Positions 1 to 27,372 of a stretch of DNA of 64,000 bases are shown piece by piece. The notes beneath the pieces are model-generated. The model had not been told where the DNA came from. It saw only the letters and a program-made list of their open reading frames with translations, and did no database searches. The position numbers were made by a program, and so were the translations under genes. The DNA comes from Tetradesmus obliquus (Eukaryota > Chlorophyta > Chlorophyceae > Sphaeropleales > Scenedesmaceae), in the NCBI GenBank assembly GCA_030272155.1, contig CP126194.1, positions 248,001 to 312,000 of the forward strand, read 5' to 3'. Positions within the stretch are counted from its first letter, which is position 1; every line of letters starts with the position of its first letter.

Positions 1-433
1 CAAACACAGCTTTCTCCTGCCGTGCGTCAGCTCAATTTAATTCTTGAATAGATGTTATTACAATGCCAAGAGTGCAGCGACATCAATGCATCCTGCTTGG
101 TAGGGCAACCGTTGAGACAAGTAACGTGTGGTTCAGTAGCTGGAGCTGCATGAAGCACATGTTAGCACGTACAATAATTAATTTCAACCGTAACAAGTAC
201 AATCATTCACGCACATCGGCTCAACTCGCCTGCATGTGAACTGCCCATCAACAGCACTGCTGCCCTGGCAGAACTGCCTTGCCACGCGCCCGCGCTTTTC
301 ACTCTGGGCCAGTCTATGCACCAATACACCATCTGACAATTATTATCAGATAACAATCTATCAACTAATCATGCCTGTGGCTGTCCATGCTGGCATACAG
401 TTGAAAACAAAGACATAACCACCCAGCTACAGC

Positions 434-1944
434 ATGGCACCAGCACATCGCCGGCGCCGTGCGGTGCGCACACACAGGAGCCCAACCAGCAGAGGAGCTG
501 TCAGAAAGGTGAGCTTGCAGGGAGTGTCAATCAACGACCTGCTGACAGCTGCTAGCTGTCTAGAGTGCAGCCAGCAGCCATATACATTCTAAGCCCTGCA
601 GCAGCAGCAGCAGCGTGCTCAGCGCTGATCATCCCTAGGCCAGTTGCCAGCCGTACCCGTGCGCTGCTTGTTGTCACGGCATACAAACACCCTGTCCAGC
701 CTGCTGCGCACCACATCCCACAAATCTGGCAGCCTCAGTGCATCAGCCATGACAGAGGCAGGTGTGATGTTCATGAATGTGTCACGCAGCGTCCGCTGCA
801 GATCACGCGGTGATACATCTGCACCAGTCAGCTGGTAGGTGTTGTACAGATGGTTACGGAAGCTAGCCTTGAGGCTGCCGAATGCATGCTCAATGGGCTG
901 GTTGAAGTCTGGGGAGTAGGGTGCAATTTGCAGCACCTGCTCTGGGCTGATGCCAACTGCAGCTAGGAGCTCTGCGGCATCTTGCCCGACATGAACACTG
1001 GGGTTGTCGAAGATGTACAGCGGCGTAGTGCCGCGCGTGCGCTGCTGTTGGTTAGCCTTCTCTGCAAGCTCCTTCATGCAGTGGACAAACTCCAGCTGTG
1101 TCATGCTCTTGGCCTTCACGTTCTTCTTCTTCTTCTGCCTCTTCAACTGCAGGTGCAGGTTTTGCCGGGTTGGCAGCGGAAAGCCTTGTTAGCAGCAGCG
1201 CAGCTGAATGTGGATGTGCAAGTGGATGATAAGGGACGCCCATTCATCAGGCTTGAGGCAGATGGGAAAAGCAGGCCCAGGATCATCAGCTTGGGGATAC
1301 GCAAGCGGCCACTGCACTGGGCCATGACGGGTTGCCTGCCAGGTGTGCAGCACTTCAAGTTCTGCGAGCCGCGCGCTGCCGCAACTGAAGCAGCTCTGGA
1401 GTGCAAGCAGTGTGCATGTTTGATGCCTAATGTGGGTGGCACAGGCGCACGCAACATGCCTGCAAGTGAGGAGCAGCTGATGCGCAAGCTGTACAGGTTG
1501 GGAATATGTGACAGCATGTGCGCGCAAGTGGCAGTAGGGTGGTGGCGAGGCCGGGTCGATTTCTTGCATGCGCAGCGCAGCGTGCTGATTCAAGCAGATG
1601 GGACATGCCATGACACTGGTATGTATGACAACAGCACAGAGAAGCTGTTGCAGCGCAACGTTGCCTTCTGTGCTGCTGCGTATGCCAAGTTCCTGCCAGC
1701 AGGCGGCAGTGTGCTGCGGGTGCGCACATGTGAAAGTGACTGGCAGGATTCCCTGGAGACTGGTTTCCAGCTTGCTGCTGGGGGTGGTGTCATTGTGCTG
1801 TCACCAAGCTACTCTGTTGTTATGGTCAGCGCAGGCCGCGGTGTGCAGCGCGCCTTCCCTGAGGCACTGCGAGATGCACTGCCACGTTGTGTGTACACAG
1901 AACGCAACAGCTGGCATGTCCTTCAATGGCGCGCATCTAACTAA
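434..1944 (+). CDS. Vsr/DUF559-like nuclease-like protein, two exons (copy 1)
   Basis: Exon 1 is 434-508, a very basic 25-residue leader (RRRR, several Arg/Lys) ending AAG then GTGAGC. Exon 2 is 1153-1944, after a pyrimidine-rich tract and CTGCAG. Both junctions are phase 0, giving 288 residues. Exon 2 shows the core of PD-(D/E)XK proteins of the Vsr/DUF559/EDxHD type: Glu near residue 131-132 (SEEQL helix), Asp161 in RVDF, then VLIQADGTCHD with Asp174, His178 and Asp179, and a following strand VLRV. Gln172 stands where DUF559 proteins usually have Glu, so activity is not assured; a RAP-like non-catalytic fold is the alternative. Cys-rich residues (C96, C109, C112, C114) lie just upstream. 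Exon 2 lies wholly within the transposase intron on the other strand. The basic leader could be a nuclear signal. Confidence 0.72.
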
Positions 1945-2840
1945 TAGCAGCACACACTCACATAGTATGGTGTGTTGGGGTTGCCAACGTGGTCAATGTT
2001 GTCTGTTGTGCCGGTGGTGAACTTGCAGTAGACAGCGCCGTGCACCGCGTTGACGGCGCACACAAAGTGTAGCTTGACTGGTTTGTTGTCCTGGCCCTTG
2101 CGCATCCACTTGCATGGTAGCACAGCATGTACGTTTGCATCATGTGCATCGCAATACACCTTGATGGCGCCGCCTGCTAGGTTGGACATCCAGAGTTTGC
2201 ACTCATCAACAAAATAAATTCTGCTCAGCAAGTCTGGCTCATCCTGGAACATCTTGTAGAGCCTCTCTGCTGCAGCCTTTCTCCTGTCTTTCTGCTTGTC
2301 TGTCAGGTCCATCTTTACATCTATTCTTCTGCGCACCAGGTTGGGGTCGACAGCTTTCATGCGCTTCAGCAGTTGCTTGGGCCTGATGTTGTACTTCCTG
2401 CATAGGCCACCCAGGTACTCATTTTCCTGACAAGCAAGTTTGATTGATGTCCACCATACATGCACGTCGACTTTCTTCTTTGCTTCTGCACTTGGGTAGG
2501 CCTTGACTACCTTGCCAGCTTTGAATGTTTCACTGGCCTTTAATGCCACGTCATCTGGGACTTTTGGGGGTCTGCCCTTGTGCTTGGGAGTTGCCACCGT
2601 GCCATACTGCTTGAAGTTCTTGTAGTGGGTCATGCAGAAGGAATTCAGGTCCTGTTTGATTTGAGCAGCATGCTTAGGATAGTGTACTCTGTAATAGCCT
2701 GCCGCGCCCTTTGGACTGCCGGCGATGGCTAGCATCGTGAGCACCGCCACCACCGCCGCCACCCGCGCGCCCGTTGACTTGCGGTTGCTCTCCCATCCCA
2801 AAGGGTGCTTGCGCACCATGGACAGCCACCCTGCAGCCAT
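619..2840 (-). CDS. Tc1/mariner-type DDE transposase, two exons (copy 1)
   Basis: Exon 1 is 2840-1962 and exon 2 is 1146-619. The donor is TAT then GTGAGT; the acceptor is CTGCAG at 1152-1147. Splicing is phase 0 and yields 468 residues. The N-terminal half has a helix-turn-helix-like region and a GRPPK motif at residues 89-93, typical between the two DNA-binding subdomains of the family. The DDE triad is D212 (YFVDECKLW), D340 (IFDNPSVH) and E379 in APYSPDFNQPIEHAF, a spacing of 38 residues between the last two by my count. The start is the first ATG of the open frame. The intron (1961-1147) contains exon 2 of the antisense nuclease gene, so the two genes interlock. The frame looks intact. 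Its role would be element excision and integration in the nucleus. Confidence 0.87.
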
Positions 2841-3448
2841 GGATTCAAAACATATGCAGGCGTCAGCTGTGCTTCTGCTAGCAGTGCAAACAGAAATAAC
2901 ATGTCAGGTCAACCTAATGTTTGCAGCAACCTGGGGTTTGACCAGCCTTCAGAAGGCAAAAATGCACATCTTCCTTTGCTGCAGCAGTTCTCAGCCTGCA
3001 TTGCAATCCTGCTGCTGCTGTTTCTGGGCAAAGTTGATGAATTGCCTGCCCACCTGTTTATGTTATAGCAGGCCTGCTGCAGCTGCTGCTGGTGGTGCAG
3101 CTGTCCCAAATCCTGCATTACTGTTGTTTGCAATTGCTGGGACCTGCCTGGCCAGCAGCACATTCAGCAGCAGACAGCAGAGTGCAGCTCAGAGGAGGGT
3201 GCTGTCACCTGCTGTAGCCTCTGTTTTTCGAATGCACACTTTGCCAGGCAAGACAGCAGCAGCAGCAGCCTGGTGGTCATGCAGTGCTGCTGCTAAATTT
3301 TCAAAAGCACATTCAGAGCACAGCCTTGTCTTGAAAGACGTTTTAAAAGCAATCCGAATTGTCTGCTGTTGCTGCCGCAGCACGATCGAGCTGGCGTAGC
3401 CTGCACAGGTGTCTTGGACTCACTGGCTCCGTGACCAGGCTGGCTGCC

Positions 3449-3558
3449 CGGCGTCTTACCGGAGAAAATTCTCGGCCCAGTAAGATGTAAGAATCAGCTA
3501 TTATGTATGAGGATAAGTTTGCAGCGTGACAGCTGTCTGCATCGAGAGTGGCTGATTC
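3449..3558. repeat. 110-bp inter-element spacer, repeated between all copies
   Basis: The stretch between the right inverted repeat of one element and the left inverted repeat of the next is the same 110 bp each time: 3449-3558, 7759-7868, 12069-12178, 15659-15768, 19249-19358 and 23559-23668. It holds a near-palindrome around GAGAAAATTCTC and a TGTAA, the algal polyadenylation word, but no open frame. A constant spacer means element and flank were multiplied together rather than by separate insertions. Confidence 0.6.
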
Positions 3559-4023
3559 GGCAGCACTTCCCCGTCACGGATTACCTGACTCAAACACAGC
3601 TTTCTCCTGCCGTGCGTCAGCTCAATTTAATTCTTGAATAGATGTTATTACAATGCCAAGAGTGCAGCGACATCAATGCATCCTGCTTGGTAGGGCAACC
3701 GTTGAGACAAGTAACGTGTGGTTCAGTAGCTGGAGCTGCATGAAGCACATGTTAGCACGTACAATAATTAATTTCAACCGTAACAAGTACAATCATTCAC
3801 GCACATCGGCTCAACTCGCCTGCATGTGAACTGCCCATCAACAGCACTGCTGCCCTGGCAGAACTGCCTTGCCACGCGCCCGCGCTTTTCACTCTGGGCC
3901 AGTCTATGCACCAATACACCATCTGACAATTATTATCAGATAACAATCTATCAACTAATCATGCCTGTGGCTGTCCATGCTGGCATACAGTTGAAAACAA
4001 AGACATAACCACCCAGCTACAGC

Positions 4024-5534
4024 ATGGCACCAGCACATCGCCGGCGCCGTGCGGTGCGCACACACAGGAGCCCAACCAGCAGAGGAGCTGTCAGAAAGGT
4101 GAGCTTGCAGGGAGTGTCAATCAACGACCTGCTGACAGCTGCTAGCTGTCTAGAGTGCAGCCAGCAGCCATATACATTCTAAGCCCTGCAGCAGCAGCAG
4201 CAGCGTGCTCAGCGCTGATCATCCCTAGGCCAGTTGCCAGCCGTACCCGTGCGCTGCTTGTTGTCACGGCATACAAACACCCTGTCCAGCCTGCTGCGCA
4301 CCACATCCCACAAATCTGGCAGCCTCAGTGCATCAGCCATGACAGAGGCAGGTGTGATGTTCATGAATGTGTCACGCAGCGTCCGCTGCAGATCACGCGG
4401 TGATACATCTGCACCAGTCAGCTGGTAGGTGTTGTACAGATGGTTACGGAAGCTAGCCTTGAGGCTGCCGAATGCATGCTCAATGGGCTGGTTGAAGTCT
4501 GGGGAGTAGGGTGCAATTTGCAGCACCTGCTCTGGGCTGATGCCAACTGCAGCTAGGAGCTCTGCGGCATCTTGCCCGACATGAACACTGGGGTTGTCGA
4601 AGATGTACAGCGGCGTAGTGCCGCGCGTGCGCTGCTGTTGGTTAGCCTTCTCTGCAAGCTCCTTCATGCAGTGGACAAACTCCAGCTGTGTCATGCTCTT
4701 GGCCTTCACGTTCTTCTTCTTCTTCTGCCTCTTCAACTGCAGGTGCAGGTTTTGCCGGGTTGGCAGCGGAAAGCCTTGTTAGCAGCAGCGCAGCTGAATG
4801 TGGATGTGCAAGTGGATGATAAGGGACGCCCATTCATCAGGCTTGAGGCAGATGGGAAAAGCAGGCCCAGGATCATCAGCTTGGGGATACGCAAGCGGCC
4901 ACTGCACTGGGCCATGACGGGTTGCCTGCCAGGTGTGCAGCACTTCAAGTTCTGCGAGCCGCGCGCTGCCGCAACTGAAGCAGCTCTGGAGTGCAAGCAG
5001 TGTGCATGTTTGATGCCTAATGTGGGTGGCACAGGCGCACGCAACATGCCTGCAAGTGAGGAGCAGCTGATGCGCAAGCTGTACAGGTTGGGAATATGTG
5101 ACAGCATGTGCGCGCAAGTGGCAGTAGGGTGGTGGCGAGGCCGGGTCGATTTCTTGCATGCGCAGCGCAGCGTGCTGATTCAAGCAGATGGGACATGCCA
5201 TGACACTGGTATGTATGACAACAGCACAGAGAAGCTGTTGCAGCGCAACGTTGCCTTCTGTGCTGCTGCGTATGCCAAGTTCCTGCCAGCAGGCGGCAGT
5301 GTGCTGCGGGTGCGCACATGTGAAAGTGACTGGCAGGATTCCCTGGAGACTGGTTTCCAGCTTGCTGCTGGGGGTGGTGTCATTGTGCTGTCACCAAGCT
5401 ACTCTGTTGTTATGGTCAGCGCAGGCCGCGGTGTGCAGCGCGCCTTCCCTGAGGCACTGCGAGATGCACTGCCACGTTGTGTGTACACAGAACGCAACAG
5501 CTGGCATGTCCTTCAATGGCGCGCATCTAACTAA
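4024..5534 (+). CDS. Vsr/DUF559-like nuclease-like protein (copy 2)
   Basis: Exons are 4024-4098 and 4743-5534, the same 288-residue product as copy 1 with no visible change. Exon 2 sits inside the copy 2 transposase intron (5551-4737). Confidence 0.72.
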
Positions 5535-6430
5535 TAGCAGCACACACTCACATAGTATGGTGTGTTGGGGTTGCCAACGTGGTCAATGTTGTCTGTTGTG
5601 CCGGTGGTGAACTTGCAGTAGACAGCGCCGTGCACCGCGTTGACGGCGCACACAAAGTGTAGCTTGACTGGTTTGTTGTCCTGGCCCTTGCGCATCCACT
5701 TGCATGGTAGCACAGCATGTACGTTTGCATCATGTGCATCGCAATACACCTTGATGGCGCCGCCTGCTAGGTTGGACATCCAGAGTTTGCACTCATCAAC
5801 AAAATAAATTCTGCTCAGCAAGTCTGGCTCATCCTGGAACATCTTGTAGAGCCTCTCTGCTGCAGCCTTTCTCCTGTCTTTCTGCTTGTCTGTCAGGTCC
5901 ATCTTTACATCTATTCTTCTGCGCACCAGGTTGGGGTCGACAGCTTTCATGCGCTTCAGCAGTTGCTTGGGCCTGATGTTGTACTTCCTGCATAGGCCAC
6001 CCAGGTACTCATTTTCCTGACAAGCAAGTTTGATTGATGTCCACCATACATGCACGTCGACTTTCTTCTTTGCTTCTGCACTTGGGTAGGCCTTGACTAC
6101 CTTGCCAGCTTTGAATGTTTCACTGGCCTTTAATGCCACGTCATCTGGGACTTTTGGGGGTCTGCCCTTGTGCTTGGGAGTTGCCACCGTGCCATACTGC
6201 TTGAAGTTCTTGTAGTGGGTCATGCAGAAGGAATTCAGGTCCTGTTTGATTTGAGCAGCATGCTTAGGATAGTGTACTCTGTAATAGCCTGCCGCGCCCT
6301 TTGGACTGCCGGCGATGGCTAGCATCGTGAGCACCGCCACCACCGCCGCCACCCGCGCGCCCGTTGACTTGCGGTTGCTCTCCCATCCCAAAGGGTGCTT
6401 GCGCACCATGGACAGCCACCCTGCAGCCAT
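4209..6430 (-). CDS. Tc1/mariner-type DDE transposase (copy 2)
   Basis: Exons are 6430-5552 and 4736-4209, giving the same 468-residue frame as copy 1 with all three DDE residues intact. Unlike copy 1, its upstream region is interrupted 111 bp before the ATG by the 720-bp segment, so its promoter context differs. Confidence 0.87.
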
Positions 6431-6541
6431 GGATTCAAAACATATGCAGGCGTCAGCTGTGCTTCTGCTAGCAGTGCAAACAGAAATAACATGTCAGGTC
6501 AACCTAATGTTTGCAGCAACCTGGGGTTTGACCAGCCTTCA

Positions 6542-7261
6542 CTAGGCACTGGTACGAAAGTAGCGCAAAGGCAGCATACTCATTGAATGCAACTTTCAAC
6601 AACGAATCTAAATCAAATTGAGCCACTATATGGGGTGCTGTGTAACTTGAGTAAAGTGCTTGCAAACCACCTGCTGCGCCCCGACTCTTTGAATTTTCGC
6701 GGGTCTGTTATCTGCTGCTTTCTGCTGCTATAGGGCGCTGCTGCCTGCACATATGTATTCATGTAACCGGTTCTACTTCTGGGCAGCACTTGCTGGCTGA
6801 TCAGGCTCTGCAGTTGTGGTGTGCCAAGTGCCCTGCCGCTGTTGTTGCGGTCTGCTGTCTGGCCCTGTACGTTGTGCGCTGCGCTGCTGCTGCTAATCTT
6901 GTTGCGGATCACCGATCGACGTTTCAGCATTACAGGCAGCTGCTGCGCGTGTGCAGCTAGGGTGGTTGAGCACAGTTGGTTGAGTGCTGCCATTCCACAC
7001 ACTCTCCTGCAGACATTCATCTTGTGTGATCACGCTGAATTCTGGAGCTGAAAAGAACTAGCAGTTTGGAGCGGGCGCTGCAAGCAGGTGAGGTGCCTGC
7101 AGGACAGCTGACATGCAAGCAAACCAAGGCAGCAGGTTCAGCAGCTGTGCCTTGCTGTACCTACCACAAGCAGCAGGTTGCTGTGCCAGCATGGCTTTCT
7201 GTTTGTGTGCTATGTGGCTTTGTCTCATATCTGGGATGCTAGGTTCGTACCCTACCCCACT
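6542..7261. mobile_element. 720-bp inverted-repeat-bounded segment (unit 2)
   Basis: The segment is present here and absent from units 1, 4 and 5, where the site reads CCTTCAGAAGG. Its edges form a 30-bp imperfect inverted repeat (6535-6564 and 7238-7267; 22 of 30 match, core GGTACGAA) that includes flanking GCCTTC/GAAGGC. No direct target duplication is visible. The right end reads CCCACTG, giving CAGTGGGG inward, which resembles hAT ends; the left end reads CACTAGG. A 135-codon minus-strand frame (7020-6613) fills much of it but matches nothing I recognise. It is probably a non-autonomous element or a MITE-like insertion. Confidence 0.7.
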
Positions 7262-8333
7262 GAAGGCAAAAATGCACATCTTCCTTTGCTGCAGCAGTTC
7301 TCAGCCTGCATTGCAATCCTGCTGCTGCTGTTTCTGGGCAAAGTTGATGAATTGCCTGCCCACCTGTTTATGTTATAGCAGGCCTGCTGCAGCTGCTGCT
7401 GGTGGTGCAGCTGTCCCAAATCCTGCATTACTGTTGTTTGCAATTGCTGGGACCTGCCTGGCCAGCAGCACATTCAGCAGCAGACAGCAGAGTGCAGCTC
7501 AGAGGAGGGTGCTGTCACCTGCTGTAGCCTCTGTTTTTCGAATGCACACTTTGCCAGGCAAGACAGCAGCAGCAGCAGCCTGGTGGTCATGCAGTGCTGC
7601 TGCTAAATTTTCAAAAGCACATTCAGAGCACAGCCTTGTCTTGAAAGACGTTTTAAAAGCAATCCGAATTGTCTGCTGTTGCTGCCGCAGCACGATCGAG
7701 CTGGCGTAGCCTGCACAGGTGTCTTGGACTCACTGGCTCCGTGACCAGGCTGGCTGCCCGGCGTCTTACCGGAGAAAATTCTCGGCCCAGTAAGATGTAA
7801 GAATCAGCTATTATGTATGAGGATAAGTTTGCAGCGTGACAGCTGTCTGCATCGAGAGTGGCTGATTCGGCAGCACTTCCCCGTCACGGATTACCTGACT
7901 CAAACACAGCTTTCTCCTGCCGTGCGTCAGCTCAATTTAATTCTTGAATAGATGTTATTACAATGCCAAGAGTGCAGCGACATCAATGCATCCTGCTTGG
8001 TAGGGCAACCGTTGAGACAAGTAACGTGTGGTTCAGTAGCTGGAGCTGCATGAAGCACATGTTAGCACGTACAATAATTAATTTCAACCGTAACAAGTAC
8101 AATCATTCACGCACATCGGCTCAACTCGCCTGCATGTGAACTGCCCATCAACAGCACTGCTGCCCTGGCAGAACTGCCTTGCCACGCGCCCGCGCTTTTC
8201 ACTCTGGGCCAGTCTATGCACCAATACACCATCTGACAATTATTATCAGATAACAATCTATCAACTAATCATGCCTGTGGCTGTCCATGCTGGCATACAG
8301 TTGAAAACAAAGACATAACCACCCAGCTACAGC

Positions 8334-9844
8334 ATGGCACCAGCACATCGCCGGCGCCGTGCGGTGCGCACACACAGGAGCCCAACCAGCAGAGGAGCTG
8401 TCAGAAAGGTGAGCTTGCAGGGAGTGTCAATCAACGACCTGCTGACAGCTGCTAGCTGTCTAGAGTGCAGCCAGCAGCCATATACATTCTAAGCCCTGCA
8501 GCAGCAGCAGCAGCGTGCTCAGCGCTGATCATCCCTAGGCCAGTTGCCAGCCGTACCCGTGCGCTGCTTGTTGTCACGGCATACAAACACCCTGTCCAGC
8601 CTGCTGCGCACCACATCCCACAAATCTGGCAGCCTCAGTGCATCAGCCATGACAGAGGCAGGTGTGATGTTCATGAATGTGTCACGCAGCGTCCGCTGCA
8701 GATCACGCGGTGATACATCTGCACCAGTCAGCTGGTAGGTGTTGTACAGATGGTTACGGAAGCTAGCCTTGAGGCTGCCGAATGCATGCTCAATGGGCTG
8801 GTTGAAGTCTGGGGAGTAGGGTGCAATTTGCAGCACCTGCTCTGGGCTGATGCCAACTGCAGCTAGGAGCTCTGCGGCATCTTGCCCGACATGAACACTG
8901 GGGTTGTCGAAGATGTACAGCGGCGTAGTGCCGCGCGTGCGCTGCTGTTGGTTAGCCTTCTCTGCAAGCTCCTTCATGCAGTGGACAAACTCCAGCTGTG
9001 TCATGCTCTTGGCCTTCACGTTCTTCTTCTTCTTCTGCCTCTTCAACTGCAGGTGCAGGTTTTGCCGGGTTGGCAGCGGAAAGCCTTGTTAGCAGCAGCG
9101 CAGCTGAATGTGGATGTGCAAGTGGATGATAAGGGACGCCCATTCATCAGGCTTGAGGCAGATGGGAAAAGCAGGCCCAGGATCATCAGCTTGGGGATAC
9201 GCAAGCGGCCACTGCACTGGGCCATGACGGGTTGCCTGCCAGGTGTGCAGCACTTCAAGTTCTGCGAGCCGCGCGCTGCCGCAACTGAAGCAGCTCTGGA
9301 GTGCAAGCAGTGTGCATGTTTGATGCCTAATGTGGGTGGCACAGGCGCACGCAACATGCCTGCAAGTGAGGAGCAGCTGATGCGCAAGCTGTACAGGTTG
9401 GGAATATGTGACAGCATGTGCGCGCAAGTGGCAGTAGGGTGGTGGCGAGGCCGGGTCGATTTCTTGCATGCGCAGCGCAGCGTGCTGATTCAAGCAGATG
9501 GGACATGCCATGACACTGGTATGTATGACAACAGCACAGAGAAGCTGTTGCAGCGCAACGTTGCCTTCTGTGCTGCTGCGTATGCCAAGTTCCTGCCAGC
9601 AGGCGGCAGTGTGCTGCGGGTGCGCACATGTGAAAGTGACTGGCAGGATTCCCTGGAGACTGGTTTCCAGCTTGCTGCTGGGGGTGGTGTCATTGTGCTG
9701 TCACCAAGCTACTCTGTTGTTATGGTCAGCGCAGGCCGCGGTGTGCAGCGCGCCTTCCCTGAGGCACTGCGAGATGCACTGCCACGTTGTGTGTACACAG
9801 AACGCAACAGCTGGCATGTCCTTCAATGGCGCGCATCTAACTAA
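8334..9844 (+). CDS. Vsr/DUF559-like nuclease-like protein (copy 3)
   Basis: Exons are 8334-8408 and 9053-9844. The frame and product match copy 1. Confidence 0.72.
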
Positions 9845-10740
9845 TAGCAGCACACACTCACATAGTATGGTGTGTTGGGGTTGCCAACGTGGTCAATGTT
9901 GTCTGTTGTGCCGGTGGTGAACTTGCAGTAGACAGCGCCGTGCACCGCGTTGACGGCGCACACAAAGTGTAGCTTGACTGGTTTGTTGTCCTGGCCCTTG
10001 CGCATCCACTTGCATGGTAGCACAGCATGTACGTTTGCATCATGTGCATCGCAATACACCTTGATGGCGCCGCCTGCTAGGTTGGACATCCAGAGTTTGC
10101 ACTCATCAACAAAATAAATTCTGCTCAGCAAGTCTGGCTCATCCTGGAACATCTTGTAGAGCCTCTCTGCTGCAGCCTTTCTCCTGTCTTTCTGCTTGTC
10201 TGTCAGGTCCATCTTTACATCTATTCTTCTGCGCACCAGGTTGGGGTCGACAGCTTTCATGCGCTTCAGCAGTTGCTTGGGCCTGATGTTGTACTTCCTG
10301 CATAGGCCACCCAGGTACTCATTTTCCTGACAAGCAAGTTTGATTGATGTCCACCATACATGCACGTCGACTTTCTTCTTTGCTTCTGCACTTGGGTAGG
10401 CCTTGACTACCTTGCCAGCTTTGAATGTTTCACTGGCCTTTAATGCCACGTCATCTGGGACTTTTGGGGGTCTGCCCTTGTGCTTGGGAGTTGCCACCGT
10501 GCCATACTGCTTGAAGTTCTTGTAGTGGGTCATGCAGAAGGAATTCAGGTCCTGTTTGATTTGAGCAGCATGCTTAGGATAGTGTACTCTGTAATAGCCT
10601 GCCGCGCCCTTTGGACTGCCGGCGATGGCTAGCATCGTGAGCACCGCCACCACCGCCGCCACCCGCGCGCCCGTTGACTTGCGGTTGCTCTCCCATCCCA
10701 AAGGGTGCTTGCGCACCATGGACAGCCACCCTGCAGCCAT
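8519..10740 (-). CDS. Tc1/mariner-type DDE transposase (copy 3)
   Basis: Exons are 10740-9862 and 9046-8519. The frame is intact. The upstream region carries the 720-bp segment, as in copy 2. Confidence 0.87.
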
Positions 10741-10851
10741 GGATTCAAAACATATGCAGGCGTCAGCTGTGCTTCTGCTAGCAGTGCAAACAGAAATAAC
10801 ATGTCAGGTCAACCTAATGTTTGCAGCAACCTGGGGTTTGACCAGCCTTCA

Positions 10852-11571
10852 CTAGGCACTGGTACGAAAGTAGCGCAAAGGCAGCATACTCATTGAATGC
10901 AACTTTCAACAACGAATCTAAATCAAATTGAGCCACTATATGGGGTGCTGTGTAACTTGAGTAAAGTGCTTGCAAACCACCTGCTGCGCCCCGACTCTTT
11001 GAATTTTCGCGGGTCTGTTATCTGCTGCTTTCTGCTGCTATAGGGCGCTGCTGCCTGCACATATGTATTCATGTAACCGGTTCTACTTCTGGGCAGCACT
11101 TGCTGGCTGATCAGGCTCTGCAGTTGTGGTGTGCCAAGTGCCCTGCCGCTGTTGTTGCGGTCTGCTGTCTGGCCCTGTACGTTGTGCGCTGCGCTGCTGC
11201 TGCTAATCTTGTTGCGGATCACCGATCGACGTTTCAGCATTACAGGCAGCTGCTGCGCGTGTGCAGCTAGGGTGGTTGAGCACAGTTGGTTGAGTGCTGC
11301 CATTCCACACACTCTCCTGCAGACATTCATCTTGTGTGATCACGCTGAATTCTGGAGCTGAAAAGAACTAGCAGTTTGGAGCGGGCGCTGCAAGCAGGTG
11401 AGGTGCCTGCAGGACAGCTGACATGCAAGCAAACCAAGGCAGCAGGTTCAGCAGCTGTGCCTTGCTGTACCTACCACAAGCAGCAGGTTGCTGTGCCAGC
11501 ATGGCTTTCTGTTTGTGTGCTATGTGGCTTTGTCTCATATCTGGGATGCTAGGTTCGTACCCTACCCCACT
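10852..11571. mobile_element. 720-bp inverted-repeat-bounded segment (unit 3)
   Basis: Same sequence and same insertion point as in unit 2, so it was copied by unit duplication and not inserted afresh. Confidence 0.7.
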
Positions 11572-12643
11572 GAAGGCAAAAATGCACATCTTCCTTTGCT
11601 GCAGCAGTTCTCAGCCTGCATTGCAATCCTGCTGCTGCTGTTTCTGGGCAAAGTTGATGAATTGCCTGCCCACCTGTTTATGTTATAGCAGGCCTGCTGC
11701 AGCTGCTGCTGGTGGTGCAGCTGTCCCAAATCCTGCATTACTGTTGTTTGCAATTGCTGGGACCTGCCTGGCCAGCAGCACATTCAGCAGCAGACAGCAG
11801 AGTGCAGCTCAGAGGAGGGTGCTGTCACCTGCTGTAGCCTCTGTTTTTCGAATGCACACTTTGCCAGGCAAGACAGCAGCAGCAGCAGCCTGGTGGTCAT
11901 GCAGTGCTGCTGCTAAATTTTCAAAAGCACATTCAGAGCACAGCCTTGTCTTGAAAGACGTTTTAAAAGCAATCCGAATTGTCTGCTGTTGCTGCCGCAG
12001 CACGATCGAGCTGGCGTAGCCTGCACAGGTGTCTTGGACTCACTGGCTCCGTGACCAGGCTGGCTGCCCGGCGTCTTACCGGAGAAAATTCTCGGCCCAG
12101 TAAGATGTAAGAATCAGCTATTATGTATGAGGATAAGTTTGCAGCGTGACAGCTGTCTGCATCGAGAGTGGCTGATTCGGCAGCACTTCCCCGTCACGGA
12201 TTACCTGACTCAAACACAGCTTTCTCCTGCCGTGCGTCAGCTCAATTTAATTCTTGAATAGATGTTATTACAATGCCAAGAGTGCAGCGACATCAATGCA
12301 TCCTGCTTGGTAGGGCAACCGTTGAGACAAGTAACGTGTGGTTCAGTAGCTGGAGCTGCATGAAGCACATGTTAGCACGTACAATAATTAATTTCAACCG
12401 TAACAAGTACAATCATTCACGCACATCGGCTCAACTCGCCTGCATGTGAACTGCCCATCAACAGCACTGCTGCCCTGGCAGAACTGCCTTGCCACGCGCC
12501 CGCGCTTTTCACTCTGGGCCAGTCTATGCACCAATACACCATCTGACAATTATTATCAGATAACAATCTATCAACTAATCATGCCTGTGGCTGTCCATGC
12601 TGGCATACAGTTGAAAACAAAGACATAACCACCCAGCTACAGC

Positions 12644-14154
12644 ATGGCACCAGCACATCGCCGGCGCCGTGCGGTGCGCACACACAGGAGCCCAACCAGC
12701 AGAGGAGCTGTCAGAAAGGTGAGCTTGCAGGGAGTGTCAATCAACGACCTGCTGACAGCTGCTAGCTGTCTAGAGTGCAGCCAGCAGCCATATACATTCT
12801 AAGCCCTGCAGCAGCAGCAGCAGCGTGCTCAGCGCTGATCATCCCTAGGCCAGTTGCCAGCCGTACCCGTGCGCTGCTTGTTGTCACGGCATACAAACAC
12901 CCTGTCCAGCCTGCTGCGCACCACATCCCACAAATCTGGCAGCCTCAGTGCATCAGCCATGACAGAGGCAGGTGTGATGTTCATGAATGTGTCACGCAGC
13001 GTCCGCTGCAGATCACGCGGTGATACATCTGCACCAGTCAGCTGGTAGGTGTTGTACAGATGGTTACGGAAGCTAGCCTTGAGGCTGCCGAATGCATGCT
13101 CAATGGGCTGGTTGAAGTCTGGGGAGTAGGGTGCAATTTGCAGCACCTGCTCTGGGCTGATGCCAACTGCAGCTAGGAGCTCTGCGGCATCTTGCCCGAC
13201 ATGAACACTGGGGTTGTCGAAGATGTACAGCGGCGTAGTGCCGCGCGTGCGCTGCTGTTGGTTAGCCTTCTCTGCAAGCTCCTTCATGCAGTGGACAAAC
13301 TCCAGCTGTGTCATGCTCTTGGCCTTCACGTTCTTCTTCTTCTTCTGCCTCTTCAACTGCAGGTGCAGGTTTTGCCGGGTTGGCAGCGGAAAGCCTTGTT
13401 AGCAGCAGCGCAGCTGAATGTGGATGTGCAAGTGGATGATAAGGGACGCCCATTCATCAGGCTTGAGGCAGATGGGAAAAGCAGGCCCAGGATCATCAGC
13501 TTGGGGATACGCAAGCGGCCACTGCACTGGGCCATGACGGGTTGCCTGCCAGGTGTGCAGCACTTCAAGTTCTGCGAGCCGCGCGCTGCCGCAACTGAAG
13601 CAGCTCTGGAGTGCAAGCAGTGTGCATGTTTGATGCCTAATGTGGGTGGCACAGGCGCACGCAACATGCCTGCAAGTGAGGAGCAGCTGATGCGCAAGCT
13701 GTACAGGTTGGGAATATGTGACAGCATGTGCGCGCAAGTGGCAGTAGGGTGGTGGCGAGGCCGGGTCGATTTCTTGCATGCGCAGCGCAGCGTGCTGATT
13801 CAAGCAGATGGGACATGCCATGACACTGGTATGTATGACAACAGCACAGAGAAGCTGTTGCAGCGCAACGTTGCCTTCTGTGCTGCTGCGTATGCCAAGT
13901 TCCTGCCAGCAGGCGGCAGTGTGCTGCGGGTGCGCACATGTGAAAGTGACTGGCAGGATTCCCTGGAGACTGGTTTCCAGCTTGCTGCTGGGGGTGGTGT
14001 CATTGTGCTGTCACCAAGCTACTCTGTTGTTATGGTCAGCGCAGGCCGCGGTGTGCAGCGCGCCTTCCCTGAGGCACTGCGAGATGCACTGCCACGTTGT
14101 GTGTACACAGAACGCAACAGCTGGCATGTCCTTCAATGGCGCGCATCTAACTAA
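12644..14154 (+). CDS. Vsr/DUF559-like nuclease-like protein (copy 4)
   Basis: Exons are 12644-12718 and 13363-14154. The frame and product match copy 1. Confidence 0.72.
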
Positions 14155-15050
14155 TAGCAGCACACACTCACATAGTATGGTGTGTTGGGGTTGCCAACGT
14201 GGTCAATGTTGTCTGTTGTGCCGGTGGTGAACTTGCAGTAGACAGCGCCGTGCACCGCGTTGACGGCGCACACAAAGTGTAGCTTGACTGGTTTGTTGTC
14301 CTGGCCCTTGCGCATCCACTTGCATGGTAGCACAGCATGTACGTTTGCATCATGTGCATCGCAATACACCTTGATGGCGCCGCCTGCTAGGTTGGACATC
14401 CAGAGTTTGCACTCATCAACAAAATAAATTCTGCTCAGCAAGTCTGGCTCATCCTGGAACATCTTGTAGAGCCTCTCTGCTGCAGCCTTTCTCCTGTCTT
14501 TCTGCTTGTCTGTCAGGTCCATCTTTACATCTATTCTTCTGCGCACCAGGTTGGGGTCGACAGCTTTCATGCGCTTCAGCAGTTGCTTGGGCCTGATGTT
14601 GTACTTCCTGCATAGGCCACCCAGGTACTCATTTTCCTGACAAGCAAGTTTGATTGATGTCCACCATACATGCACGTCGACTTTCTTCTTTGCTTCTGCA
14701 CTTGGGTAGGCCTTGACTACCTTGCCAGCTTTGAATGTTTCACTGGCCTTTAATGCCACGTCATCTGGGACTTTTGGGGGTCTGCCCTTGTGCTTGGGAG
14801 TTGCCACCGTGCCATACTGCTTGAAGTTCTTGTAGTGGGTCATGCAGAAGGAATTCAGGTCCTGTTTGATTTGAGCAGCATGCTTAGGATAGTGTACTCT
14901 GTAATAGCCTGCCGCGCCCTTTGGACTGCCGGCGATGGCTAGCATCGTGAGCACCGCCACCACCGCCGCCACCCGCGCGCCCGTTGACTTGCGGTTGCTC
15001 TCCCATCCCAAAGGGTGCTTGCGCACCATGGACAGCCACCCTGCAGCCAT
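12829..15050 (-). CDS. Tc1/mariner-type DDE transposase (copy 4)
   Basis: Exons are 15050-14172 and 13356-12829. The frame is intact, with the short-form upstream region. Confidence 0.87.
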
Positions 15051-16233
15051 GGATTCAAAACATATGCAGGCGTCAGCTGTGCTTCTGCTAGCAGTGCAAA
15101 CAGAAATAACATGTCAGGTCAACCTAATGTTTGCAGCAACCTGGGGTTTGACCAGCCTTCAGAAGGCAAAAATGCACATCTTCCTTTGCTGCAGCAGTTC
15201 TCAGCCTGCATTGCAATCCTGCTGCTGCTGTTTCTGGGCAAAGTTGATGAATTGCCTGCCCACCTGTTTATGTTATAGCAGGCCTGCTGCAGCTGCTGCT
15301 GGTGGTGCAGCTGTCCCAAATCCTGCATTACTGTTGTTTGCAATTGCTGGGACCTGCCTGGCCAGCAGCACATTCAGCAGCAGACAGCAGAGTGCAGCTC
15401 AGAGGAGGGTGCTGTCACCTGCTGTAGCCTCTGTTTTTCGAATGCACACTTTGCCAGGCAAGACAGCAGCAGCAGCAGCCTGGTGGTCATGCAGTGCTGC
15501 TGCTAAATTTTCAAAAGCACATTCAGAGCACAGCCTTGTCTTGAAAGACGTTTTAAAAGCAATCCGAATTGTCTGCTGTTGCTGCCGCAGCACGATCGAG
15601 CTGGCGTAGCCTGCACAGGTGTCTTGGACTCACTGGCTCCGTGACCAGGCTGGCTGCCCGGCGTCTTACCGGAGAAAATTCTCGGCCCAGTAAGATGTAA
15701 GAATCAGCTATTATGTATGAGGATAAGTTTGCAGCGTGACAGCTGTCTGCATCGAGAGTGGCTGATTCGGCAGCACTTCCCCGTCACGGATTACCTGACT
15801 CAAACACAGCTTTCTCCTGCCGTGCGTCAGCTCAATTTAATTCTTGAATAGATGTTATTACAATGCCAAGAGTGCAGCGACATCAATGCATCCTGCTTGG
15901 TAGGGCAACCGTTGAGACAAGTAACGTGTGGTTCAGTAGCTGGAGCTGCATGAAGCACATGTTAGCACGTACAATAATTAATTTCAACCGTAACAAGTAC
16001 AATCATTCACGCACATCGGCTCAACTCGCCTGCATGTGAACTGCCCATCAACAGCACTGCTGCCCTGGCAGAACTGCCTTGCCACGCGCCCGCGCTTTTC
16101 ACTCTGGGCCAGTCTATGCACCAATACACCATCTGACAATTATTATCAGATAACAATCTATCAACTAATCATGCCTGTGGCTGTCCATGCTGGCATACAG
16201 TTGAAAACAAAGACATAACCACCCAGCTACAGC

Positions 16234-17744
16234 ATGGCACCAGCACATCGCCGGCGCCGTGCGGTGCGCACACACAGGAGCCCAACCAGCAGAGGAGCTG
16301 TCAGAAAGGTGAGCTTGCAGGGAGTGTCAATCAACGACCTGCTGACAGCTGCTAGCTGTCTAGAGTGCAGCCAGCAGCCATATACATTCTAAGCCCTGCA
16401 GCAGCAGCAGCAGCGTGCTCAGCGCTGATCATCCCTAGGCCAGTTGCCAGCCGTACCCGTGCGCTGCTTGTTGTCACGGCATACAAACACCCTGTCCAGC
16501 CTGCTGCGCACCACATCCCACAAATCTGGCAGCCTCAGTGCATCAGCCATGACAGAGGCAGGTGTGATGTTCATGAATGTGTCACGCAGCGTCCGCTGCA
16601 GATCACGCGGTGATACATCTGCACCAGTCAGCTGGTAGGTGTTGTACAGATGGTTACGGAAGCTAGCCTTGAGGCTGCCGAATGCATGCTCAATGGGCTG
16701 GTTGAAGTCTGGGGAGTAGGGTGCAATTTGCAGCACCTGCTCTGGGCTGATGCCAACTGCAGCTAGGAGCTCTGCGGCATCTTGCCCGACATGAACACTG
16801 GGGTTGTCGAAGATGTACAGCGGCGTAGTGCCGCGCGTGCGCTGCTGTTGGTTAGCCTTCTCTGCAAGCTCCTTCATGCAGTGGACAAACTCCAGCTGTG
16901 TCATGCTCTTGGCCTTCACGTTCTTCTTCTTCTTCTGCCTCTTCAACTGCAGGTGCAGGTTTTGCCGGGTTGGCAGCGGAAAGCCTTGTTAGCAGCAGCG
17001 CAGCTGAATGTGGATGTGCAAGTGGATGATAAGGGACGCCCATTCATCAGGCTTGAGGCAGATGGGAAAAGCAGGCCCAGGATCATCAGCTTGGGGATAC
17101 GCAAGCGGCCACTGCACTGGGCCATGACGGGTTGCCTGCCAGGTGTGCAGCACTTCAAGTTCTGCGAGCCGCGCGCTGCCGCAACTGAAGCAGCTCTGGA
17201 GTGCAAGCAGTGTGCATGTTTGATGCCTAATGTGGGTGGCACAGGCGCACGCAACATGCCTGCAAGTGAGGAGCAGCTGATGCGCAAGCTGTACAGGTTG
17301 GGAATATGTGACAGCATGTGCGCGCAAGTGGCAGTAGGGTGGTGGCGAGGCCGGGTCGATTTCTTGCATGCGCAGCGCAGCGTGCTGATTCAAGCAGATG
17401 GGACATGCCATGACACTGGTATGTATGACAACAGCACAGAGAAGCTGTTGCAGCGCAACGTTGCCTTCTGTGCTGCTGCGTATGCCAAGTTCCTGCCAGC
17501 AGGCGGCAGTGTGCTGCGGGTGCGCACATGTGAAAGTGACTGGCAGGATTCCCTGGAGACTGGTTTCCAGCTTGCTGCTGGGGGTGGTGTCATTGTGCTG
17601 TCACCAAGCTACTCTGTTGTTATGGTCAGCGCAGGCCGCGGTGTGCAGCGCGCCTTCCCTGAGGCACTGCGAGATGCACTGCCACGTTGTGTGTACACAG
17701 AACGCAACAGCTGGCATGTCCTTCAATGGCGCGCATCTAACTAA
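16234..17744 (+). CDS. Vsr/DUF559-like nuclease-like protein (copy 5)
   Basis: Exons are 16234-16308 and 16953-17744. The frame and product match copy 1. Confidence 0.72.
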
Positions 17745-18640
17745 TAGCAGCACACACTCACATAGTATGGTGTGTTGGGGTTGCCAACGTGGTCAATGTT
17801 GTCTGTTGTGCCGGTGGTGAACTTGCAGTAGACAGCGCCGTGCACCGCGTTGACGGCGCACACAAAGTGTAGCTTGACTGGTTTGTTGTCCTGGCCCTTG
17901 CGCATCCACTTGCATGGTAGCACAGCATGTACGTTTGCATCATGTGCATCGCAATACACCTTGATGGCGCCGCCTGCTAGGTTGGACATCCAGAGTTTGC
18001 ACTCATCAACAAAATAAATTCTGCTCAGCAAGTCTGGCTCATCCTGGAACATCTTGTAGAGCCTCTCTGCTGCAGCCTTTCTCCTGTCTTTCTGCTTGTC
18101 TGTCAGGTCCATCTTTACATCTATTCTTCTGCGCACCAGGTTGGGGTCGACAGCTTTCATGCGCTTCAGCAGTTGCTTGGGCCTGATGTTGTACTTCCTG
18201 CATAGGCCACCCAGGTACTCATTTTCCTGACAAGCAAGTTTGATTGATGTCCACCATACATGCACGTCGACTTTCTTCTTTGCTTCTGCACTTGGGTAGG
18301 CCTTGACTACCTTGCCAGCTTTGAATGTTTCACTGGCCTTTAATGCCACGTCATCTGGGACTTTTGGGGGTCTGCCCTTGTGCTTGGGAGTTGCCACCGT
18401 GCCATACTGCTTGAAGTTCTTGTAGTGGGTCATGCAGAAGGAATTCAGGTCCTGTTTGATTTGAGCAGCATGCTTAGGATAGTGTACTCTGTAATAGCCT
18501 GCCGCGCCCTTTGGACTGCCGGCGATGGCTAGCATCGTGAGCACCGCCACCACCGCCGCCACCCGCGCGCCCGTTGACTTGCGGTTGCTCTCCCATCCCA
18601 AAGGGTGCTTGCGCACCATGGACAGCCACCCTGCAGCCAT
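16419..18640 (-). CDS. Tc1/mariner-type DDE transposase (copy 5)
   Basis: Exons are 18640-17762 and 16946-16419. The frame is intact, with the short-form upstream region. Confidence 0.87.
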
Positions 18641-19823
18641 GGATTCAAAACATATGCAGGCGTCAGCTGTGCTTCTGCTAGCAGTGCAAACAGAAATAAC
18701 ATGTCAGGTCAACCTAATGTTTGCAGCAACCTGGGGTTTGACCAGCCTTCAGAAGGCAAAAATGCACATCTTCCTTTGCTGCAGCAGTTCTCAGCCTGCA
18801 TTGCAATCCTGCTGCTGCTGTTTCTGGGCAAAGTTGATGAATTGCCTGCCCACCTGTTTATGTTATAGCAGGCCTGCTGCAGCTGCTGCTGGTGGTGCAG
18901 CTGTCCCAAATCCTGCATTACTGTTGTTTGCAATTGCTGGGACCTGCCTGGCCAGCAGCACATTCAGCAGCAGACAGCAGAGTGCAGCTCAGAGGAGGGT
19001 GCTGTCACCTGCTGTAGCCTCTGTTTTTCGAATGCACACTTTGCCAGGCAAGACAGCAGCAGCAGCAGCCTGGTGGTCATGCAGTGCTGCTGCTAAATTT
19101 TCAAAAGCACATTCAGAGCACAGCCTTGTCTTGAAAGACGTTTTAAAAGCAATCCGAATTGTCTGCTGTTGCTGCCGCAGCACGATCGAGCTGGCGTAGC
19201 CTGCACAGGTGTCTTGGACTCACTGGCTCCGTGACCAGGCTGGCTGCCCGGCGTCTTACCGGAGAAAATTCTCGGCCCAGTAAGATGTAAGAATCAGCTA
19301 TTATGTATGAGGATAAGTTTGCAGCGTGACAGCTGTCTGCATCGAGAGTGGCTGATTCGGCAGCACTTCCCCGTCACGGATTACCTGACTCAAACACAGC
19401 TTTCTCCTGCCGTGCGTCAGCTCAATTTAATTCTTGAATAGATGTTATTACAATGCCAAGAGTGCAGCGACATCAATGCATCCTGCTTGGTAGGGCAACC
19501 GTTGAGACAAGTAACGTGTGGTTCAGTAGCTGGAGCTGCATGAAGCACATGTTAGCACGTACAATAATTAATTTCAACCGTAACAAGTACAATCATTCAC
19601 GCACATCGGCTCAACTCGCCTGCATGTGAACTGCCCATCAACAGCACTGCTGCCCTGGCAGAACTGCCTTGCCACGCGCCCGCGCTTTTCACTCTGGGCC
19701 AGTCTATGCACCAATACACCATCTGACAATTATTATCAGATAACAATCTATCAACTAATCATGCCTGTGGCTGTCCATGCTGGCATACAGTTGAAAACAA
19801 AGACATAACCACCCAGCTACAGC

Positions 19824-21334
19824 ATGGCACCAGCACATCGCCGGCGCCGTGCGGTGCGCACACACAGGAGCCCAACCAGCAGAGGAGCTGTCAGAAAGGT
19901 GAGCTTGCAGGGAGTGTCAATCAACGACCTGCTGACAGCTGCTAGCTGTCTAGAGTGCAGCCAGCAGCCATATACATTCTAAGCCCTGCAGCAGCAGCAG
20001 CAGCGTGCTCAGCGCTGATCATCCCTAGGCCAGTTGCCAGCCGTACCCGTGCGCTGCTTGTTGTCACGGCATACAAACACCCTGTCCAGCCTGCTGCGCA
20101 CCACATCCCACAAATCTGGCAGCCTCAGTGCATCAGCCATGACAGAGGCAGGTGTGATGTTCATGAATGTGTCACGCAGCGTCCGCTGCAGATCACGCGG
20201 TGATACATCTGCACCAGTCAGCTGGTAGGTGTTGTACAGATGGTTACGGAAGCTAGCCTTGAGGCTGCCGAATGCATGCTCAATGGGCTGGTTGAAGTCT
20301 GGGGAGTAGGGTGCAATTTGCAGCACCTGCTCTGGGCTGATGCCAACTGCAGCTAGGAGCTCTGCGGCATCTTGCCCGACATGAACACTGGGGTTGTCGA
20401 AGATGTACAGCGGCGTAGTGCCGCGCGTGCGCTGCTGTTGGTTAGCCTTCTCTGCAAGCTCCTTCATGCAGTGGACAAACTCCAGCTGTGTCATGCTCTT
20501 GGCCTTCACGTTCTTCTTCTTCTTCTGCCTCTTCAACTGCAGGTGCAGGTTTTGCCGGGTTGGCAGCGGAAAGCCTTGTTAGCAGCAGCGCAGCTGAATG
20601 TGGATGTGCAAGTGGATGATAAGGGACGCCCATTCATCAGGCTTGAGGCAGATGGGAAAAGCAGGCCCAGGATCATCAGCTTGGGGATACGCAAGCGGCC
20701 ACTGCACTGGGCCATGACGGGTTGCCTGCCAGGTGTGCAGCACTTCAAGTTCTGCGAGCCGCGCGCTGCCGCAACTGAAGCAGCTCTGGAGTGCAAGCAG
20801 TGTGCATGTTTGATGCCTAATGTGGGTGGCACAGGCGCACGCAACATGCCTGCAAGTGAGGAGCAGCTGATGCGCAAGCTGTACAGGTTGGGAATATGTG
20901 ACAGCATGTGCGCGCAAGTGGCAGTAGGGTGGTGGCGAGGCCGGGTCGATTTCTTGCATGCGCAGCGCAGCGTGCTGATTCAAGCAGATGGGACATGCCA
21001 TGACACTGGTATGTATGACAACAGCACAGAGAAGCTGTTGCAGCGCAACGTTGCCTTCTGTGCTGCTGCGTATGCCAAGTTCCTGCCAGCAGGCGGCAGT
21101 GTGCTGCGGGTGCGCACATGTGAAAGTGACTGGCAGGATTCCCTGGAGACTGGTTTCCAGCTTGCTGCTGGGGGTGGTGTCATTGTGCTGTCACCAAGCT
21201 ACTCTGTTGTTATGGTCAGCGCAGGCCGCGGTGTGCAGCGCGCCTTCCCTGAGGCACTGCGAGATGCACTGCCACGTTGTGTGTACACAGAACGCAACAG
21301 CTGGCATGTCCTTCAATGGCGCGCATCTAACTAA
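19824..21334 (+). CDS. Vsr/DUF559-like nuclease-like protein (copy 6)
   Basis: Exons are 19824-19898 and 20543-21334. The frame and product match copy 1. Confidence 0.72.
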
Positions 21335-22230
21335 TAGCAGCACACACTCACATAGTATGGTGTGTTGGGGTTGCCAACGTGGTCAATGTTGTCTGTTGTG
21401 CCGGTGGTGAACTTGCAGTAGACAGCGCCGTGCACCGCGTTGACGGCGCACACAAAGTGTAGCTTGACTGGTTTGTTGTCCTGGCCCTTGCGCATCCACT
21501 TGCATGGTAGCACAGCATGTACGTTTGCATCATGTGCATCGCAATACACCTTGATGGCGCCGCCTGCTAGGTTGGACATCCAGAGTTTGCACTCATCAAC
21601 AAAATAAATTCTGCTCAGCAAGTCTGGCTCATCCTGGAACATCTTGTAGAGCCTCTCTGCTGCAGCCTTTCTCCTGTCTTTCTGCTTGTCTGTCAGGTCC
21701 ATCTTTACATCTATTCTTCTGCGCACCAGGTTGGGGTCGACAGCTTTCATGCGCTTCAGCAGTTGCTTGGGCCTGATGTTGTACTTCCTGCATAGGCCAC
21801 CCAGGTACTCATTTTCCTGACAAGCAAGTTTGATTGATGTCCACCATACATGCACGTCGACTTTCTTCTTTGCTTCTGCACTTGGGTAGGCCTTGACTAC
21901 CTTGCCAGCTTTGAATGTTTCACTGGCCTTTAATGCCACGTCATCTGGGACTTTTGGGGGTCTGCCCTTGTGCTTGGGAGTTGCCACCGTGCCATACTGC
22001 TTGAAGTTCTTGTAGTGGGTCATGCAGAAGGAATTCAGGTCCTGTTTGATTTGAGCAGCATGCTTAGGATAGTGTACTCTGTAATAGCCTGCCGCGCCCT
22101 TTGGACTGCCGGCGATGGCTAGCATCGTGAGCACCGCCACCACCGCCGCCACCCGCGCGCCCGTTGACTTGCGGTTGCTCTCCCATCCCAAAGGGTGCTT
22201 GCGCACCATGGACAGCCACCCTGCAGCCAT
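20009..22230 (-). CDS. Tc1/mariner-type DDE transposase (copy 6)
   Basis: Exons are 22230-21352 and 20536-20009. The frame is intact, with the long-form upstream region. Confidence 0.87.
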
Positions 22231-22341
22231 GGATTCAAAACATATGCAGGCGTCAGCTGTGCTTCTGCTAGCAGTGCAAACAGAAATAACATGTCAGGTC
22301 AACCTAATGTTTGCAGCAACCTGGGGTTTGACCAGCCTTCA

Positions 22342-23061
22342 CTAGGCACTGGTACGAAAGTAGCGCAAAGGCAGCATACTCATTGAATGCAACTTTCAAC
22401 AACGAATCTAAATCAAATTGAGCCACTATATGGGGTGCTGTGTAACTTGAGTAAAGTGCTTGCAAACCACCTGCTGCGCCCCGACTCTTTGAATTTTCGC
22501 GGGTCTGTTATCTGCTGCTTTCTGCTGCTATAGGGCGCTGCTGCCTGCACATATGTATTCATGTAACCGGTTCTACTTCTGGGCAGCACTTGCTGGCTGA
22601 TCAGGCTCTGCAGTTGTGGTGTGCCAAGTGCCCTGCCGCTGTTGTTGCGGTCTGCTGTCTGGCCCTGTACGTTGTGCGCTGCGCTGCTGCTGCTAATCTT
22701 GTTGCGGATCACCGATCGACGTTTCAGCATTACAGGCAGCTGCTGCGCGTGTGCAGCTAGGGTGGTTGAGCACAGTTGGTTGAGTGCTGCCATTCCACAC
22801 ACTCTCCTGCAGACATTCATCTTGTGTGATCACGCTGAATTCTGGAGCTGAAAAGAACTAGCAGTTTGGAGCGGGCGCTGCAAGCAGGTGAGGTGCCTGC
22901 AGGACAGCTGACATGCAAGCAAACCAAGGCAGCAGGTTCAGCAGCTGTGCCTTGCTGTACCTACCACAAGCAGCAGGTTGCTGTGCCAGCATGGCTTTCT
23001 GTTTGTGTGCTATGTGGCTTTGTCTCATATCTGGGATGCTAGGTTCGTACCCTACCCCACT
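22342..23061. mobile_element. 720-bp inverted-repeat-bounded segment (unit 6)
   Basis: Same sequence and insertion point as in units 2, 3 and 7. Confidence 0.7.
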
Positions 23062-26540: not shown

Positions 26541-26651
26541 GGATTCAAAACATATGCAGGCGTCAGCTGTGCTTCTGCTAGCAGTGCAAACAGAAATAAC
26601 ATGTCAGGTCAACCTAATGTTTGCAGCAACCTGGGGTTTGACCAGCCTTCA

Positions 26652-27371: not shown

Positions 27372-27372
27372 G

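Follow-up and report, generated by a model that had tools for sequence, protein, structure and literature searches.

Two antisense genes interlocked around a palindromic predicted splice acceptor in a probable array-forming, composite-like DNA transposon of Tetradesmus obliquus

The window analysed here (64,000 nucleotides, G000:C4:248001-312000) carries part of a tandem array that very probably represents a composite-like DNA transposon. In this element, two long terminal direct repeats (LTDRs) enclose an internal segment (INT) encoding an IS630/Tc1-like DDE transposase and a nuclease-like protein, whose genes are interlocked around one acceptor; its arrays would have arisen by unequal exchange. 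Searches took in the 104.66-Mb, 17-contig genome, which contains a second clade of the element with 57% identity to the window copy in the nuclease-like protein and 68-70% in the transposase. The genes lie as follows in the first unit of the window.

434..508, plus strand: nuclease-like gene exon 1, 25 codons, open, phase 0, with donor GTGAGC at 509; ATG, length and donor are kept in clade 2
509..1152, plus strand: predicted intron of the nuclease-like gene, GTGAGC...CTGCAG, likewise in clade 2; holds transposase exon 2
1153..1944, plus strand: nuclease-like gene exon 2, a Cys/His region followed by a weak DUF559-like core, stop at 1942-1944; omega 0.53
1962..2840, minus strand: transposase exon 1, with the first catalytic Asp (D212); omega 0.35
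1147..1961, minus strand: predicted transposase intron, donor GTGAGT at 1961, acceptor CTGCAG (11/11 copies); holds nuclease exon 2
619..1146, minus strand: transposase exon 2, with D340 and E379; Pfam DDE_3 at E 1.2e-6 (28.9 bits, cut-off 28.6), NCBIfam IS630 at E 3.9e-7 but 29.8 bits, cut-off 100
1147..1152, either strand: palindromic CTGCAG, proposed acceptor for both genes (11/11 copies)

On the plus strand, a phase-0 join of 434-508 to 1153-1944 yields an open frame of 288 aa; on the minus strand, a phase-0 join of 2840-1962 to 1146-619 yields one of 468 aa. The exons, donors and joins given in an earlier note on this DNA are correct in their coordinates. The reciprocal antisense nesting that it described is also present, as transposase exon 2 (619-1146) lies within 509-1152 and nuclease exon 2 (1153-1944) within 1961-1147. 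The palindrome CTGCAG (1147-1152), identical to its reverse complement, ends both predicted introns and could be used as an acceptor on either strand. Owing to the interlock, no coding exon of one mRNA overlaps a coding exon of the other; the UTRs may overlap. The further claim that deleting either gene breaks the other goes too far: loss of nuclease exon 2 alone (1153-1944) takes the transposase intron, not code, and mutual gene loss follows only from deletion of a whole gene span.

Layout, donors and acceptor are all conserved in the second clade, one copy of which (L049) shows a 75-nt exon 1, GTGAGC and GTGAGT donors and the same CTGCAG. The junction CTGCAG was found in all 11 copies examined, as was the transposase donor GTGAGT in 11/11, while the nuclease donor GTGAGC occurs in nine of the ten copies reaching that site (L054 has GTGAGA; L051 stops short). 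Clade 1 has a second AG six bases downstream that is absent from clade 2, which makes the palindrome the better nuclease acceptor. Other phase-0 AGs, 2 or ~13 codons further downstream, are alternative candidates for the transposase acceptor. Both clades carry CTAAC on the minus strand ~42 bases before the acceptor, which we take to be a plausible branch point. Between clades, the 17-base stretch 1945-1961, which separates the nuclease stop from the transposase exon, is 94% identical, versus 70-74% for the flanking exons. Uninterrupted homologues were sought in this genome with an 81-aa junction query, and none of the 150 scored matches (539 candidates) spanned the junction. As judged from sequence, both predicted introns are probably spliced.

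The DDE_3 and IS630 matches of exon 2 bear out the DDE transposase core proposed earlier; the clade-2 transposase scores 22.6 bits against DDE_3, below the Pfam cut-off. Catalytic residues were assigned by eye from motifs: D212 is encoded in exon 1, and D340 and E379, separated by 38 residues (DD38E), in exon 2. The assignment to Tc1/mariner agrees with this core and with Tc1-like scars, but not with target duplications of 3 bp that are not TA. Since a TA duplication was tested for and not found, we do not file the element as Tc1/mariner. No relatives of transposase exon 1 or exon 2 were retrieved from the viral contigs searched, and solved structures gave no significant match (SETMAR only at E 1.4). 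The same genome also encodes an ordinary, uninterrupted mariner-like transposase at C17:1097277 (L095), with 391 aa and a D2-E3 spacing of 35.

The plus-strand protein contains a Cys/His-rich stretch that is invariant. Its description as a nuclease agrees with a weak DUF559 similarity but not with the curated cut-off, under which the score falls. The DUF559 match is weak in 7/7 related members, with E-values of 0.056-0.19 (best 0.056) and scores of 12.1 and 13.7 bits in the two members shown, below the Pfam gathering cut-off of 20.6; the protein has Gln where the DUF559 motif has Glu. Pfam searches at E up to 10 listed no His-Me family, although HMMER filters drop most matches above ~0.1 and the conserved Cys/His are present. 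No significant nuclease match was detected in PHROGs or NCBIfam, and nuclease exon 2 had no relatives in the viral contigs or prokaryote genomes searched. The AlphaFold model of this exon is unusable (mean pLDDT 37.4). The nuclease identity of the protein is treated as a lead, not a result.

Positions 1-27372 of the window are made up of perfect head-to-tail units of 3,590 or 4,310 bp each. The earlier note had recognised the unit as part of a mobile element, which holds, but missed the ~150-kb tandem array of an LTDR transposon to which this unit belongs. This array spans C4:125267 to C4:275372, and both of its termini are a 723-bp LTDR. The element itself has the structure LTDR-INT-LTDR and measures ~5.03 kb, with an INT of 3,587 bp and LTDRs of 723 bp. 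Its parts in the window are these.

1..27372, plus strand: right part of the 150-kb head-to-tail array, unit starts 1, 3591, 7901, 12211, 15801, 19391 and 23701
2950..2952: CAG scar, LTDR missing between two INTs; likewise 15160-15162 and 18750-18752
6540..7262, plus strand: LTDR, 723 bp, ~19-bp imperfect inverted ends (C4:254540-255262)
10850..11572, plus strand: LTDR (C4:258850-259572)
22340..23062, plus strand: LTDR (C4:270340-271062)
26650..27372, plus strand: terminal LTDR, right end of the array (C4:274650-275372)
27373..27375: CAT, right copy of the whole-array 3-bp target duplication; the left copy stands immediately before G000:C4:125267

The LTDR is 723 bp long in the reference units of both clades, with 70% identity between them. 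Its ends are imperfect inverted repeats, CACTAGGCACTGGTACGAA / CAGTGGGGTAGGGTACGAA in clade 1 and CAGCTGGGCATGGTACAAA / CAGCTAGGTATGGTACAAA in clade 2. A single copy, LTDR-INT-LTDR, is present at C6:5874481-5879483, and its two LTDRs differ at 2/723 positions. The 720-bp insert was considered as a later insertion into the unit; this was rejected because 2951/2952 lacks a target duplication and the same segment stands at both ends of the array. The C4 array contains 38 INTs and 37 gaps, and no differences were observed among the INTs read (28 in full and 4 in part; the other 6 are unread). The longest array, ~217 kb on C13, includes some reversed units; gene units are reversed at C13:1148728 and C13:1227562-1236955 within an otherwise uniform array. 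Array copy numbers are as assembled. Elsewhere in the window, there is a 15-bp tandem repeat at 29265-29396 (8.8 copies, 100% match) and a 184-bp one at 48064-48597 (2.9 copies).

In the 3,590-bp units, consecutive INTs are linked by just three bases (4,310 - 723 + 3 = 3,590). This spacing is found in 21 of the 37 gaps of the C4 array; 16 of these joints were read, nine as CAG and seven as CTG, and five are unread. The remaining gaps comprise 15 with one LTDR (11 read) and one with two abutting LTDRs. At C4:222217-223662, two LTDRs abut head to tail with neither INT nor target duplication between them. In clade 2, both joints read (one each from the C14 and C12 arrays) are CAG, between different INT ends. 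Judged by spacings, short gaps number 0/4 in C14a, 0/8 in C10, 1/11 in C14b, 3/12 in C12 (part) and 6/22 in C13 (part); a search of L082 for joints of the C13 array found none, so that the short gaps of this array are known from spacings. Short inverted repeats form the INT ends and have altered together between the clades (GCCTT/AAGGC, GTCT/AGAC). Each INT-INT joint is therefore a palindrome, GCCTTC(A/T)GAAGGC in clade 1 and GTCTCAGAGAC in clade 2. Such joints, noticed post hoc, would suit a dimeric nuclease.

Sleeping Beauty leaves C(A/T)G scars, in which CAG-type overhangs with an A-A mismatch are repaired to CAG or CTG. The mix of CAG and CTG observed here fits two such overhangs of 3 nt each, mismatched A-A at the centre. 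For mariner elements, passages of PMC2642840 describe 5'-strand cuts that fall two or three nucleotides within the element. CAG or CTG at the site of LTDR loss is the scar that would be expected of Tc1-type cuts, and the excision of this element seems to resemble Tc1/mariner in mode.

Sixteen INT-bearing insertions were read at both ends; 15 of them carry a perfect 3-bp target duplication, with varied sequences (CAT, GCT, GTG, TGA, GAT, GTT, ACC, TTG, ATT, CGG, GTA, TGT, TTA, TTT and AGC). The sixteenth insertion, on C8, has AGA/ATA and no perfect duplication. This tally leaves out at least the arrays at C1:10.79 Mb, C16:0.2 Mb and C5:1.2 Mb, as well as two copies on C6, at 5693 kb and 5540 kb; the latter, an older copy (C6:5540268), is without a recognisable right end. 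All seven arrays read at both ends (C4 twice, C10, C12, C13, C14 twice) are among the 15. The 3-bp duplications stand around single copies as well as whole arrays, and each of the seven arrays therefore goes back to one insertion or was inserted as a multimer.

LTDR searches, in which 40 of 290 and 40 of 293 candidates were scored, yielded at least six partnerless LTDRs that were read, one of clade 1 and five of clade 2. Three are solo LTDRs with perfect 3-bp duplications (C4:7208645, C13:3042147 and C13:4438325), two have an INT on one side, and one, at C6:6042295, is flanked by TCT/TGT. Two irregular forms were also observed: in L092 470-1193 (C6:5537770-5538493), an LTDR is inverted relative to its own INT and joined directly to the INT start, and in L086 a solo LTDR has right-type ends at both sides. 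The array at C14:1589200-1611472 (flanks L058 and L075) is inserted in a 25-bp minisatellite. Neighbouring units that are uninterrupted suggest GAGGC-TGC-CAGCTG-TGC-AGCACC as its pre-insertion site, which looks like an old excision footprint of a clade-2-type element (TGC duplicated around CAG+CTG).

We propose that the transposase most likely pairs any two suitable inverted LTDR ends. If the outermost ends were paired, the whole element would move and produce a 3-bp target duplication. If the two ends of one LTDR were paired, that LTDR would be excised by cuts 3 nt inside its ends, leaving CAG or CTG. Unequal exchange between direct repeats would then multiply a single inserted copy where it stands and make each array homogeneous, and breaks made by the nuclease-like protein possibly provoke this exchange. 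An alternative, which we consider unlikely, combines a second, independent emergence of the LTDR architecture, here on an IS630-type transposase, with a different role for the nuclease-like protein: it would recognise the palindrome left by LTDR loss, and repair from a neighbouring INT-LTDR-INT would restore LTDRs and enlarge the array. On this view, the interlock round a shared acceptor would also prevent complementarity between the coding exons of the two mRNAs and tie the two proteins together.

The plan of the element has a counterpart in KolobokP, described by Kojima and Bao (2022; PMC9587614) as a composite-like transposon, LTDR-INT-LTDR, in seven animal phyla. Its authors set it apart from every other DNA transposon by its LTDRs and propose a nuclease-induced unequal crossover. 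Shared with our element are the LTDR-INT-LTDR structure, LTDRs constrained in length with short inverted ends of their own, an INT coding for a transposase and a small nuclease (here a nuclease-like protein), solo LTDRs, (LTDR-INT)n-LTDR multimers flanked by target duplications, and INT-INT joints (PMC9587614). This likeness favours the reading of our element as a branch of KolobokP, and the nuclease identity is too weak to rule out a His-Cys type protein. Such a placement is nevertheless quite improbable. KolobokP has the 5'-RR ... YY-3' termini of Kolobok, a Kolobok transposase, a His-Me homing-type nuclease and micro-deletions of 3-4 bp at INT-INT joints (PMC9587614). In contrast, our element ends in 5'-CA...TG-3' in both clades, its best transposase matches among the profile models searched are DDE_3 and IS630 (an IS630-type core), its nuclease-like protein matches DUF559 weakly and no His-Me family was listed, and its joints carry three added bases, the CAG/CTG scar. 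PMC9587614 names multimers at least as large as LTDR-(INT)4-LTDR; arrays here reach ~217 kb. Its main text contains none of the words 'antisense', 'opposite' and 'nested', and interlocked antisense genes are a feature of the present element; one red-algal Kolobok is described there with a RecQ helicase on the complementary strand. Because termini, transposase matches and scar differ, our element looks like a separate lineage sharing the plan of KolobokP; a distant link is conceivable.

That the arrays are assembly artefacts, falsely duplicated from single insertions, is very improbable: all INTs read from C4 have the same sequence, as this explanation would have it, but the C4, C10, C13 and C14 arrays differ slightly in sequence, arrays differ in their mix of gap lengths, and C4 mixes CAG, CTG, single-LTDR and double-LTDR joints, which repetition of one unit would not give.

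Coding constraint was assessed between the two clades. In the claimed frames, dN/dS (omega) was 0.53 for nuclease exon 2 (bootstrap 0.37-0.76), 0.35 for transposase exon 1 (0.24-0.50) and 0.35 for transposase exon 2 (0.22-0.54). The five other frames of each exon hold stops (3 to 18 codon pairs) and have omegas of 0.66-1.71, with two exceptions, one minus shadow frame per transposase exon (0.47 and 0.48, holding 9 and 15 stops). For nuclease exon 2, the claimed frame has the lowest omega of the six and is the only one free of stops. In neutral simulations, the clade-2 frame stayed open in 2/2000 cases for nuclease exon 2, 4/2000 for transposase exon 1 and 107/2000 for transposase exon 2. As far as sequence comparison can tell, purifying selection acts on the three long exons in these frames. 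Nuclease exon 1 is too short for the test (1508/2000 neutral copies stay open), and it thus rests on its conserved ATG, length and donor. In the older copy L050 (C6:5540268), which has ~90% DNA identity, transposase exon 2 is broken and the plus-strand frame is still open over 388 aa.

These values bear on the view that the plus-strand frame is spurious antisense and the transposase, with an ordinary long intron, the sole gene. Open antisense frames are common in GC-rich coding DNA, the plus frame also has no stop upstream across 967-1152, opposite part of transposase exon 2, and the protein has no confident family match. This view is nonetheless highly unlikely, as nuclease exon 2 lies opposite an intron, not code, and yet shows the constraint given above, its protein alignment between clades contains two gaps of whole codons (3 and 1), its frame rarely survives neutral simulation, and 144 of 145 scored copies (274 candidates) have no in-frame stop. 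An unspliced nuclease-like protein is itself unlikely and the spliced form preferred, since the plus frame has no upstream in-frame ATG common to both clades. It is scarcely credible that the transposase halves are unspliced, being separate polypeptides or not made at all while another source moves the element in trans: each half is an open frame alone, but D1 is encoded in exon 1 and D2/E3 in exon 2, so that neither half could form a complete DDE domain, both halves are equally constrained, and donor and acceptor are conserved. Two spliced, interlocked genes thus remain our preferred reading.

The composite-like transposon proposed here suggests that LTDR elements of this kind, represented in the open-licence literature by one animal lineage, also exist on another transposase type and outside animals. 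In it, LTDR loss leaves a 3-nt scar of two forms within arrays reaching ~217 kb, and these homogeneous arrays let the birth of tandem transposon arrays and satellites be studied. Among known systems, it shares with Tc1/mariner-IS630 elements the DDE_3/IS630 core, inverted ends beginning with CAG (in clade 2) and a 3-nt scar derived from the ends (passages of PMC2642840). It differs from them in its 3-bp non-TA duplications, split gene and LTDRs; its DD38E spacing stands beside the DD34E/D type of that superfamily. A 3-bp target duplication is typical of EnSpm/CACTA elements, and the clade-1 left end reads CACTA. Identity with EnSpm/CACTA was rejected, as the clade-2 termini are CAGCT...AGCTG and Pfam gave no match to another transposase family. 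Eukaryotic genomes also contain interleaved antisense gene pairs, in which the exons of one gene lie within the introns of the other. Here, the interlocked genes and their palindromic acceptor offer a compact natural test of antisense splicing without interference, and they differ from such pairs in that both belong to one transposon and their introns apparently have a common palindromic acceptor.
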